Below are positions 7,224-10,288 of a stretch of DNA of 54,475 nucleotides, piece after piece. Each line of letters begins with the position of its first letter. Positions within the stretch are counted from its first letter, which is position 1. The notes under the pieces were generated by a model that was not told the origin of the DNA, made no database searches, and saw only the letters and a program-made list of their open reading frames with translations. The translations under genes and the position numbers were made by a program. Origin of the DNA: Verrucomicrobiales bacterium (GTDB lineage: Bacteria; Verrucomicrobiota; Verrucomicrobiia; Verrucomicrobiales; DEV007); contig JARGOP010000024.1 in the NCBI GenBank assembly GCA_029233965.1, positions 7,147 through 61,621 on the forward strand. Reading direction: 5' to 3'.

Positions 7224-8651
7224 ATGAATCGAAGAACCCTCCTCCTCTTTTCGTTCCTTTGCTGTCTGATCTCCGCGCGTGCGGATGAGCTGCCAAACAT
7301 CATTTTCATCATCGCTGATGATCTCGGGTACGGAGAGCTGAGCGTTCAGAATCCTGACACGGACGTTCCGACTCCGCATATCGATTCGATTGCGACGAAT
7401 GGAGTGCGATTCACGGACGGGTATGTCTCGGCTCCTTTTTGTGCCGCTTCGAGGGCCGGACTCATCACGGGCCGGTATCAGACTCGGTTCGGATTTGAGT
7501 TCAATCCCATCGGTCCGCGCAATGAAGATCCGGACGCCGGGCTGCCGCCCAGAGAAGTTACTCTCGCCGATCTCCTTCGTGACAAAGCAGGTTACAGTAC
7601 CGCGATGATCGGGAAATGGCATCTTGGCGGAACCGCTCATTTCAATCCGATTCGACGGGGCTTTGACGAGTTCTACGGATTTCTCCACGAGGGACACTAC
7701 TTTCGCCCGCTCCCCTACGAAGGCATGACGACCTGGCTCCGGCGAAAAGTTCTGCCGGGAGGAAAGACCGGTCGCTGGACCTCCGATGACGGGACGCTCA
7801 TTTACTCAACGCACATGGGTGGCAATGAGCCGGACTACGACGCCGACAATCCCGTTTATCGAAACGGCCAACCGATCGACGAGCCGGAAAACCTCACCGA
7901 TGCGATCACTCGCGAGGCTGTCAGTTTCGTCCGGCGATGCGGCGATGAGCGTCCCTTTTTTCTCTATCTCGCCTACAATGCGGTGCACAGTCCGCTTCAG
8001 GGTGAGGCGGACTACATGGAAAAATATGCCGGGATCGATGACATTCAGCGTCGCATCTTTGCGGCGATGTTAGGGCATCTCGACGACGGGGTCGGTCGTC
8101 TTCTCGATGCCGTCAAAGCCGAGGGGATCCGGGAGAACACGATGATCGTTTTCCTGAGTGATAACGGCGGGCCGACCCGCGAACTCACGAGCAGCAACCT
8201 TCCGCTCAAGGGTGAAAAAGGGCGCCTCCATGAGGGAGGGATCCGCGTTCCCTTTCTCCTGCAGTACCCCGCGAAAGTGAAGGGCGGGCAGGTCTACGAA
8301 GAGCCGGTCTCTTCGCTCGATCTGTTTCCCACCAGTTTGGCGTTAGCCGGTTTGGAGCCCCCGACGCAGACGGACGGGGCCGATTTGATTCCGTATTTGA
8401 ACGGGGAAAAAACCGGTTCCCCTCACGAGTCACTTTACTGGCGCGTGGGAGATCGTGCCGCTTTGCGGAAAGGCGACTGGAAGATCGTCCGCGATCGGCA
8501 GCGCGGGCAGCCCGGACCGTGGGAACTCTACAATCTGCGGGAGGACATCGGAGAGGTGAACGATCTCGCGGGAGAGGAGGATGAGATTCTCGAAGAACTC
8601 GTCGAAGAGTGGGAGGAACTTGATCAAGAGATGATCGAGCCGGTGTTTTGA
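7224..8651 (+). CDS. Secreted type I sulfatase
   Basis: 475 residues with an N-terminal signal peptide (to about residue 20). The sulfatase metal motif ADDLGYGE is followed by the signature C73-A-A-S-R77, whose Cys is converted to formylglycine by a maturase not in this window. Other family features are GKWHLGG, FLYLAYNAVHSPLQ, LSDNGGP and the C-terminal WKIVRD/ELYNLREDIGEVNDLA segment, which suggests the arylsulfatase A / N-acetylgalactosamine-6-sulfatase group. It probably desulfates polysaccharides in the periplasm or outside the cell; the substrate is not deducible. Its stop codon overlaps one copy of a 9-bp direct repeat flanking the GxxExxY gene. Confidence 0.9.
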   Translation: MNRRTLLLFSFLCCLISARADELPNIIFIIADDLGYGELSVQNPDTDVPTPHIDSIATNGVRFTDGYVSAPFCAASRAGLITGRYQTRFGFEFNPIGPRNEDPDAGLPPREVTLADLLRDKAGYSTAMIGKWHLGGTAHFNPIRRGFDEFYGFLHEGHYFRPLPYEGMTTWLRRKVLPGGKTGRWTSDDGTLIYSTHMGGNEPDYDADNPVYRNGQPIDEPENLTDAITREAVSFVRRCGDERPFFLYLAYNAVHSPLQGEADYMEKYAGIDDIQRRIFAAMLGHLDDGVGRLLDAVKAEGIRENTMIVFLSDNGGPTRELTSSNLPLKGEKGRLHEGGIRVPFLLQYPAKVKGGQVYEEPVSSLDLFPTSLALAGLEPPTQTDGADLIPYLNGEKTGSPHESLYWRVGDRAALRKGDWKIVRDRQRGQPGPWELYNLREDIGEVNDLAGEEDEILEELVEEWEELDQEMIEPVF

Positions 8652-8658
8652 ATGGGCA
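8650..8658 (+). repeat. 9-bp direct repeat, left copy (GAATGGGCA)
   Basis: GAATGGGCA at 8650-8658 recurs at 9130-9138, bracketing the inverted-repeat-flanked GxxExxY gene. The left copy overlaps the sulfatase stop codon. The pair could be a target-site duplication, but the element ends next to the repeats do not match each other, so the interpretation is tentative. Confidence 0.35.
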
Positions 8659-8684
8659 GGTTGAAAGCCAGGTGATTGGTGGTC

Positions 8685-9123
8685 ATTCTTTTCCATTCGT
8701 TAAAACTCGAGTTCCAGATGAGTCATATCACATCACGAGCCGCTTCCATTCCAACTTCGGTTTTTTGAAATTGATAAGAAGCCCTGTCCTGAGGGTGGAA
8801 ATGCGAGGGTAATTCAGGAGTTGCGCGGTTTCTGCATCGCCCAGAGTTTCAACAGACTTCACTTCAATCAGGATCGTTTTACCCACCGTTAGATCAGGCG
8901 CGCAGTCGCCGACGATTTCATCATCAAATTTGATCGGATAAGCCCTTTGCTGCTCCACCTTAATTTTCTGTCTTCTCAATGCGATCACGAGGGCGTTCTC
9001 GTAGGGCTTTTCCCTGAGCCCCGGTCCGAGTTTGCGATGAACCTCCATAGCGCATCCGATAATCTCGTAGGTTCCGTCAGAGAATTCAGCCATGGAGATT
9101 GACATACACGAATGGAAAAGAAT
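8685..9123. mobile_element. GxxExxY cassette bounded by 16-bp perfect inverted repeats
   Basis: ATTCTTTTCCATTCGT at 8685-8700 is the exact reverse complement of 9108-9123. The repeats hug the GxxExxY gene: one begins 3 nt before its start codon, the other lies 27 nt past its stop. A perfect 16-bp inverted repeat at this distance is not expected by chance in a window of this size. Two readings are possible: a small non-autonomous mobile cassette, or a transcript whose 5' and 3' untranslated ends can pair. GxxExxY proteins are known to occur in several copies in some genomes, which favours mobility. Confidence 0.45.
8728..9105 (-). CDS. GxxExxY protein (PD-(D/E)XK nuclease-like)
   Basis: 125 residues, typical length for the family. 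The naming motif is G29-x-x-E32-x-x-Y35 within HRKLGPGLREKPYENAL. Further on, PDLTVGKTILIEVK has the spaced D...E-x-K of a PD-(D/E)XK nuclease core, and the C-terminus ends with the common TGLLINFKKPKLEWKRLV pattern. The biochemical function of this family is unknown; a nuclease role is inferred from the fold. An alternative start is residue 5 (9093). The gene lies on the strand opposite its neighbours, inside a 16-bp inverted repeat, suggesting it arrived as a unit. Confidence 0.85.
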   Translation of the reverse strand: MSISMAEFSDGTYEIIGCAMEVHRKLGPGLREKPYENALVIALRRQKIKVEQQRAYPIKFDDEIVGDCAPDLTVGKTILIEVKSVETLGDAETAQLLNYPRISTLRTGLLINFKKPKLEWKRLVM

Positions 9124-9129
9124 TGGAAA

Positions 9130-9138
9130 GAATGGGCA
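9130..9138 (+). repeat. 9-bp direct repeat, right copy (GAATGGGCA)
   Basis: Second copy of GAATGGGCA, 6 nt outside the right inverted repeat of the GxxExxY cassette. See the left copy at 8650-8658. Confidence 0.35.
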
Positions 9139-9167
9139 TGAGTAATTCCCTTACAACTTTCCCGCAT

Positions 9168-9202
9168 CAAACCCTGTTGAATCCTTGAGCAAACCCTGTT
9201 GA
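9168..9202 (+). promoter_or_regulatory. Tandem 13-bp motif CAAACCCTGTTGA upstream of recF
   Basis: CAAACCCTGTTGA occurs exactly at 9168-9180 and again at 9190-9202, 22 bp apart (about two helical turns), ending 15 nt before the recF ATG. The 10-bp core AACCCTGTTG recurs as an inverted pair before the methionine gene near 51.5 kb. The layout suggests binding sites for a dimeric regulator; the regulator is unknown. Confidence 0.4.
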
Positions 9203-9217: not shown

Positions 9218-10288
9218 ATGGTCCTCCGCTCACTCAATCTGAATCACTTTCGCTGCTTCGAAACCGCGCAGCTGGGGGTGGCGCCGGGGATCACGCTTTT
9301 CCATGGGAATAACGCGCAGGGAAAGACCTCCATCCTTGAAGCCGCCTGCGTCCTGCTGCGTCTCCAAAGTCCCCGCGCCTCGAAGCTGGCCGACTGCATT
9401 CGTTTTTCCGAGAAGGCGTTTGCGATCGGGGGAAAGCTTGAGGGAGGGGATTCGTCCGAGCTCCGGTTTCAGTATCGTGAGTCAGGACGTCGTCTTATCG
9501 TGGATGGAGAAACTCAGAAGCGGGGCGCGGATTATCTTCGCCACAGTTCGCTCGTTGTCTGGATGGCGAACGATGATCTCGTGCTGGTTCGGGGAGGCGG
9601 CGAAAGTCGCCGCCGCTATCTCGACTTCATGGCATCGCAGCTTTACCCGGGCTATCTGCAGTCGCTGAGGACGTACGACAAGGCGCTCCGGACCCGGAAC
9701 TACCTGCTGAAGCGCGATGCCAGCCCGAGGTGGCCCGAGGTCGATGCGTATACCCGCATCCTCAGCGAGCAGGGTCGGATCCTTTCCGCGCAGCGAAGGG
9801 AGTTGATCGAGCGCCTGCGGCCGAAAACAGCGGAAGCGCAGCGCGAGATCAGCGGAAGCGACGAGAGTCTCGAAATTCAGTATGAATGCGGCTCGGCGGA
9901 ATCGCCGGACCTCTTTCAGTATCTTTTCGATCATCGATCTGAAGAGTTTCGGAAGCGGCAGACCCTGGCGGGCCCTCACCGTGATGACCTGAGCCTGAAC
10001 CTGAACGGCATGCCTGCTTCCAAGTTTGCGAGCGAAGGGCAGCAGCGCACCGTCGCCCTGGCATTAAAGTTGGGCCAGACTCATCTCTTTCTGGAAACGA
10101 GAAGTCAGCCTCCGATTCTGTTGATCGATGATGTCTTCGGTGAGCTGGACCCGGCCCGACGCAATGCGCTCATGGCGGCATGGCCGGAGACTTCGCAAAA
10201 GCTGATCACGACGACCCACCTTGACTGGCTCGATGACCGGTTTGATTCCGCGCAACGACTCCACGTCGAGTCTGCGACGGTGAGTTAG
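9218..10288 (+). CDS. recF: DNA replication and repair protein RecF
   Basis: SMC-like ABC ATPase that helps load RecA on gapped single-stranded DNA at stalled forks. The protein has 356 residues from ATG 9218 (MVLRSLNLNHFRCF, the usual RecF opening). A GTG 15 nt upstream is an alternative. Visible motifs are Walker A GNNAQGKTS (30-38), the RecF-type LAGPHRDDLSL, the signature SEGQQRT and Walker B ILLIDDVFGELD. It is not next to dnaA/dnaN/gyrB as in many bacteria. Its last 4 bases overlap the end of the convergent alr gene. Two copies of a 13-bp motif sit just upstream. Confidence 0.92.
   Translation: MVLRSLNLNHFRCFETAQLGVAPGITLFHGNNAQGKTSILEAACVLLRLQSPRASKLADCIRFSEKAFAIGGKLEGGDSSELRFQYRESGRRLIVDGETQKRGADYLRHSSLVVWMANDDLVLVRGGGESRRRYLDFMASQLYPGYLQSLRTYDKALRTRNYLLKRDASPRWPEVDAYTRILSEQGRILSAQRRELIERLRPKTAEAQREISGSDESLEIQYECGSAESPDLFQYLFDHRSEEFRKRQTLAGPHRDDLSLNLNGMPASKFASEGQQRTVALALKLGQTHLFLETRSQPPILLIDDVFGELDPARRNALMAAWPETSQKLITTTHLDWLDDRFDSAQRLHVESATVS

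Follow-up and report, generated by a model that had tools for sequence, protein, structure and literature searches.

The window analysed here, that is, the whole 54,475-nt stretch of DNA (G000:C86:7147-61621, where G000 is the window's own genome), carries between a sulfatase gene and a recF-like gene an intact gene of the GxxExxY family that is enclosed by a perfect inverted repeat (Table 1). The two arms are complementary at 16 of 16 positions. No second exact inverted repeat of at least 16 bp within 600 bp was found anywhere in the 54-kb window, and dinucleotide shuffles of the whole 54 kb contained a mean of 0.05 such repeats (2 in 40 shuffles). A preliminary description of this DNA, whose coordinates for the inverted repeat and for the 9-bp direct repeat GAATGGGCA proved exact (including the overlap of one copy with the sulfatase stop codon), had held the inverted repeat unlikely to be chance; by itself, the repeat is unusual and only suggestive, not decisive. 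It is beyond doubt because other GxxExxY loci have inverted arms too.

Table 1. Features of the GxxExxY locus and its neighbours, in window positions
Feature	Position	Strand	Sequence or evidence
Sulfatase gene	7224..8651	+	Neighbour kept in empty-site genomes
Left 9-bp direct repeat	8650..8658	+	GAATGGGCA; overlaps the sulfatase stop codon
Left degenerate short-unit array	8671..8706	.	Reverse complement is AACGAATGG-AAAAGAATG-ACCACCAAT; family common to gene-less copies L331, L334 and L335
Left inverted-repeat arm, perfect 16 bp, 3′ of the gene	8685..8700	+	ATTCTTTTCCATTCGT
GxxExxY gene, 125 aa, intact	8728..9105	-	ORF, profile matches, catalytic residues E32, D71, E81, K83, Q95 and Y99
Right degenerate short-unit array	9106..9140	.	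ACACGAATGG-AAAAGAATTGG-AAAGAATGGGCA
Right inverted-repeat arm, perfect 16 bp, 5′ of the gene, 2 nt from ATG	9108..9123	+	ACGAATGGAAAAGAAT
Right 9-bp direct repeat	9130..9138	+	GAATGGGCA; third unit of the right array
recF-like gene	9218..10288	+	Neighbour kept in empty-site genomes

The 9-bp direct repeat is unremarkable, being of a size expected by chance in such a stretch: besides GAATGGGCA, two more 9-nt exact pairs occur within the same 1.3 kb, and shuffles have about three within 500 bp. The site homologous to its left copy reads GGGATGGCCA in genome G045, and the left copy is probably old host sequence. Two direct boxes (CAAACCCTGTTGA), 22 bp apart, were also seen 5′ of the recF-like gene (window 9168-9180 and 9190-9202; L003 1501-1540); they recur upstream of recF in genomes of the same genus and before a ThiE-like ORF elsewhere in G000, and are a possible shared control site.

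The window protein matches PF13366 only, at 122.7 bits (cut-off 22), and scores 130.6 bits (cut-off 35) with the GxxExxY model TIGR04256, so that both profile and catalytic residues place it in the GxxExxY / PDDEXK_3 family. Across 196 proteins, the PD-(D/E)XK positions E32, D71, E/D81, K83, Q95 and Y99 are 97-100% conserved. The AlphaFold2 model of the protein (pLDDT 89.1) was found by Foldseek to be nearest to Cas4 SSO0001 (4ic1; E 6e-5) and to lambda-type exonucleases, and structural re-alignment gave Z 9.4 over 99 residues for Cas4 and Z 6 to 8 for many other PD-(D/E)XK enzymes. Because of this spread of scores, the predicted assignment to the PD-(D/E)XK superfamily is firm, while the Cas4/lambda-exonuclease sub-family is a lead. 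A sequence search of the PDB returned no detectable relative. Carriage by phage was considered and rejected: no phage relative was found, and distant relatives lie on eight plasmids.

Arm sequence follows the protein lineage

Profile searches found GxxExxY loci in 24 of 37 relatives and in 70 of 144 genomes across the phylum Verrucomicrobiota. A diverse alignment contained no conserved stretch that could serve for a collection scan, and the 80 named loci that such a scan yielded are therefore centred on the window's own clade; Verrucomicrobiota lead this set, with others in Chloroflexota, Bacteroidota, Acidobacteria, Cloacimonadota, Poribacteria, Planctomycetota, Armatimonadota and further groups. 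For each locus, the 200 nt upstream of the start codon were aligned against the reverse-complemented 200 nt that follow the stop codon. Among 119 Verrucomicrobiota loci, 70% had inverted arms scoring at least 16 (versus 0.34% in shuffles) and 56% had arms scoring at least 20 (versus 0 of 4760 shuffles); direct repeats reached 16 at just 20% of these loci. Inverted arms scoring at least 16 were likewise present at 61% of the 80 named loci, a set that partly overlaps the 119 (the contigs of L196 and L027, for example, each of 221,735 bp, look like one and the same). None of the control flanks reached 16, neither those of recF (0 of 27) nor those of ORFs of at least 200 aa (0 of 117). At this threshold, about one-third of GxxExxY loci are without clear arms.

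Each arm consists of about three short units (7-nt examples are CACGAAT, CACAGAG and ACAGGAT), usually of the form C(A/G)C-NN-A-(T/A/G), or ACAGGAT, and spaced 1 to 4 nt apart; examples of whole arms are TTTAACCACGAAACACACGAAATACACGAAAGG, AACCACAGAGGACACAGAGG, AGACAGGATTAACAGGATTGACAGGATT and AACCGCTGATGGACGCTAAT. Arm polarity is mixed: the arms of the window's clade (GLREKPYENAL), whose unit reads ATTCGCG or ATTCGTG, are mostly directed away from the gene.

Arm similarity increased with protein identity when arms were compared in the same polarity, and in that polarity alone (Mantel rho 0.206; maximum over 500 permutations 0.075), and arms were shared by 40% of the locus pairs at 60-75% protein identity versus 1-2% of those below 40%. 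When mapped onto a maximum-likelihood phylogeny of 107 proteins, many forks of which are weak because the alignment has only 114 columns, the arm family changed 39 times, versus 72.3 times in shuffles (minimum 66). Furthermore, units with a terminal G are present in 28 of 28 members of one deep protein clade and in 0 of the remaining 79 (which have T or A); under a family-free definition of the unit, the corresponding counts are 23 of 23 versus 2 of 47. An arm family was shared by 13% of same-genome pairs with protein identity below 0.5 and by 56% of different-genome pairs with identity above 0.6; therefore, the arms belong to the gene and not to the host. The same comparison ruled out the host genome's pool of repeats as an arm source. 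Arm sequence thus goes with the lineage of the protein and not with the host, and the co-segregation of arm and protein strongly implies that the protein recognises its own arms.

Empty sites and gene-less arm pairs

The gene order sulfatase-recF-alr is kept in the genomes G006 (recF 94% identical), G012 (87%) and G045 (76%), and in all of them the GxxExxY gene is absent from the sulfatase-recF junction. The junction in G012 retains an arm remnant (CCACGAATGAACAC), and the gap in G006 (L066) is occupied by an inverted pair that lacks the gene and belongs to another arm family (AACCGCTGAT...ATTAGTGTCCATGAGCGGTT); hence the sulfatase-recF gap looks like a repeat hot spot. For a second element of the window's clade (G006:C129), 520 bp lie between the matched flanks in G006, and the matching sites are gene-less in G000 (19 bp between flanks), in G004 (31 bp) and in G012, where an arm remnant is left (GCGGGAATTTGCGTTGA). 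Presence and absence of the cassette at a conserved site in close relatives is therefore clear, and the arm remnants at empty sites are compatible with either gain or loss of the gene.

The preliminary description had taken the gene and its inverted repeat for a cassette, and had named two outcomes that would speak against this, namely other copies without inverted repeats and a gene fixed at this site with no empty-site allele. Neither was encountered, because most of the other copies have arms and the gene is missing from this junction in sister genomes. Its further suggestion of a small mobile cassette, possibly with 9-bp flanking duplications, would correspond to a short transposon of the classical type, bounded by terminal inverted repeats and by a target-site duplication of 9 bp. 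This agrees with the inverted ends, the empty sites and the presence of GAATGGGCA on both sides in the window. However, across the 81 loci with clear arms no consistent target duplication, of fixed length as in classical transposons, was detected (mean longest exact match 1.47 versus 1.17 +/- 0.20), the empty sites are without GAATGGGCA, the right copy of GAATGGGCA is part of the arm array, and the copies of the gene in a single genome are for the most part divergent from one another and not products of recent duplication. We consider such a transposon very improbable, and a reading of the 9-bp repeats as its target-site duplication is not supported.

Arms are also dispersed without the gene. 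Exact triplets of three arm families amounted to 525, 122 and 635 copies in the 144 genomes and were present in 42, 29 and 42 of them, of which 40, 27 and 39, respectively, have PF13366 (p = 6e-14, 3e-8 and 2e-12; these values are indicative only and overstate independence, because genomes without the gene and without arms cluster in few families). Conversely, 68 of the 74 genomes without PF13366 have none of the three arm families. For the CAGAG family, the relation between cognate gene and copy number is weak (p = 0.088). Among the reversed control patterns, that for the CACGAA family had almost no matches, that for the CAGAG family had few, and that for the CAGGAT family matched an unrelated array in a few genomes, mainly G062, where its 199 matches represent a separate dispersed short-unit family.

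Several of the retrieved copies are compact inverted pairs with no gene, lying 13-38 nt apart and 83-100% complementary. In G000, where dispersed copies were counted by pattern alone, the 16-mer of the window arm occurs exactly at a third place and has 11 matches at no more than 2 mismatches (control 1); three of these matches, L331, L334 and L335, are, as judged by eye, part of gene-less imperfect inverted pairs (for example, AACACGAATG...CATTCGTGTT). A hairpin that lacks the gene but has arms of the window's family (G000:C6:20205) was also noted 1.7 kb from an S23/IVS-type gene (C6:21939-22244). That the arms are short-unit arrays which track the protein clade, and which are dispersed as gene-less pairs as well, goes beyond what the preliminary description had proposed.

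Such high copy numbers of arms without the gene, together with the two or three genomes per arm family in which arms are present and the gene was not detected, would also be expected if another enzyme moved the repeats and the gene had been caught by chance between two of them. A passenger gene of this kind is nevertheless highly unlikely: the arms track the protein's lineage from one genome to another and vary between the copies of a single genome, and genomes without the gene are almost never armed. As a separate observation, G113 and G183 (both of family f33) carry arm triplets, in 6 and 15-16 copies, with no PF13366 gene detected; a lost gene, a missing contig and another driver are candidate explanations.

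Possible roles of the nuclease and its arms

The explanation that we favour, and hold to be fairly likely, is that the gene and its own inverted arms constitute a REPIN/RAYT-like unit with an unrelated nuclease, which recognises the units and acts at the arms. The nuclease would bind repeated units of its own arms and would cut or nick the DNA there, probably when the arms are folded or single-stranded; such cutting could allow the copying, movement or loss of arm pairs and, more rarely, of the complete gene-bearing unit. It is probable that the GxxExxY gene spreads its own repeats or reads them, and we infer that cutting and movement are the work of its protein. Against this explanation stand the lack of target duplication at the 81 loci and the fact that no copy was caught in movement. 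The arm remnants at empty sites, the loci that have no clear arms, the mixed arm polarity, the arms of G113 and G183 and the weak copy-number relation of the CAGAG family also count against it.

The protein might instead bind the arms for self-regulation only, in which case the dispersed arms would be regulatory or decoy sites and not mobile DNA. An upstream arm that abuts the start codon in many loci (at 2 nt in the window) would suit an operator, and arm-protein co-segregation is the pattern expected of a DNA-binding regulator. Yet the nuclease active site is conserved, a second arm follows the stop codon in inverted order, the gene-less hairpins are compact with loops of 13-38 nt, and the element is present at some sites and absent from others. 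We therefore regard regulation alone as unlikely.

A similarly low probability is given to an RNA element, in which the arms would pair as a long stem that is excised or hides the start codon, like the intervening sequences (IVS) of 23S rRNA. The minimum-energy fold of the predicted transcript does include pairing of the arms; in the same genomes, S23/IVS genes (PF05635) lie between inverted short-unit arms at 70% of 30 loci, and a terminal inverted repeat of 28 bp plus tandem heptamers have been described for the IVS of Coxiella (PMC4990558). Selection on RNA pairing is not visible, however, because the wobble test and the fold test were both negative: arm mismatches have no excess of G.U-compatible changes (102 versus 110, p = 0.63), and the transcript folds no more stably than shuffles (z = -0.12). 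On the same two results, the self-pairing transcript that had been put forward as a purpose of the inverted repeat is set aside. Moreover, the window locus lies between protein genes, outside rRNA, and a stem alone leaves the match between unit and protein clade unexplained.

Returning to a nuclease that acts at its own arms, we tentatively extend the proposal to the family as a whole, at somewhat less than an even chance. GxxExxY proteins may be sequence-specific PD-(D/E)XK nucleases that each recognise the 7-nt unit of their own clade, repeated in threes, and that drive a widespread class of miniature mobile DNA (both gene-bearing units and gene-less hairpins), with a cutting chemistry unlike that of RAYTs and DDE transposases. 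The family is widespread, and a clade-specific DNA unit beside the gene offers a concrete, testable substrate; the proposal would also account for short-unit repeats that are dispersed in large numbers through many bacterial genomes.

Comparison with known systems

In the literature searched, which excludes subscription papers and preprints, the six arm sequences appear in no paper. No description of GxxExxY arms was found in this literature, and GxxExxY is named in two papers, one of them on an algal virus, neither of which was counted as concerning the flanks of the gene. Further searches returned analogues only.

The nearest of these in layout are REP/BIME and REPIN sequences with their RAYT (TnpA-REP) proteins, for which a gene between inverted repeats, co-evolution, gene-less doublets and a repeat abundance tied to the gene have been described (PMC2817692, PMC3116915). 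At the GxxExxY loci, too, a nuclease gene lies between two inverted repeats, the repeats co-evolve with the protein, gene-less inverted pairs are dispersed between genes, and their abundance tracks the gene. RAYTs, however, are HUH tyrosine (Y1) transposases of the IS200/IS605 group, whereas the protein here has PF13366 as its only match and a predicted PD-(D/E)XK fold; likewise, REPs are GTAG-headed palindromes, whereas the arms here comprise about three short direct units and have no palindrome of their own. Because the enzyme is unrelated, the likeness is one of layout and not of membership.

An element size of about 430 bp, a small ORF between inverted ends and tandem units of 7 nt are shared with the 23S rRNA IVS that carry an S23p ORF (PF05635, a four-helix bundle; PMC4990558). 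Yet the proteins are unrelated, and the IVS units have a vocabulary such as GGTAACT and TTAGCGG. The known IVS cases lie in rRNA and are removed by RNase III, whereas the window locus, which has no PF05635 ORF and is not inside an rRNA gene, is placed between sulfatase and recF-like genes. In their own right, the PF05635 genes of the same genomes (L101-L130) were seen to lie between inverted 7-nt-unit arms with their own vocabulary, the mismatches of which lean 38 to 18 towards changes that give wobble pairs on the antisense strand. This layout is in line with that of the Coxiella IVS, and S23/IVS proteins may be a second class, parallel to the GxxExxY proteins, whose arms are laid out in the same way.

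MITEs resemble the gene-less copies as short inverted pairs dispersed in a genome, but the GxxExxY arms have no consistent target duplication. The TAACTGA repeats of Beggiatoaceae are likewise dispersed intergenic 7-nt units; unlike the GxxExxY arms, they are mainly direct, have no linked nuclease described and are closer in sequence to the S23-type arms (PMC4679880). For the protein itself, the predicted fold and the E..D..ExK..QxxxY residues are those of Cas4, lambda exonuclease and RecB-type nucleases, although the window gene has no CRISPR partner beside it. If the favoured explanation holds, a nuclease of the Cas4/RecB type would have been recruited, independently of RAYTs, for a REPIN-like system.
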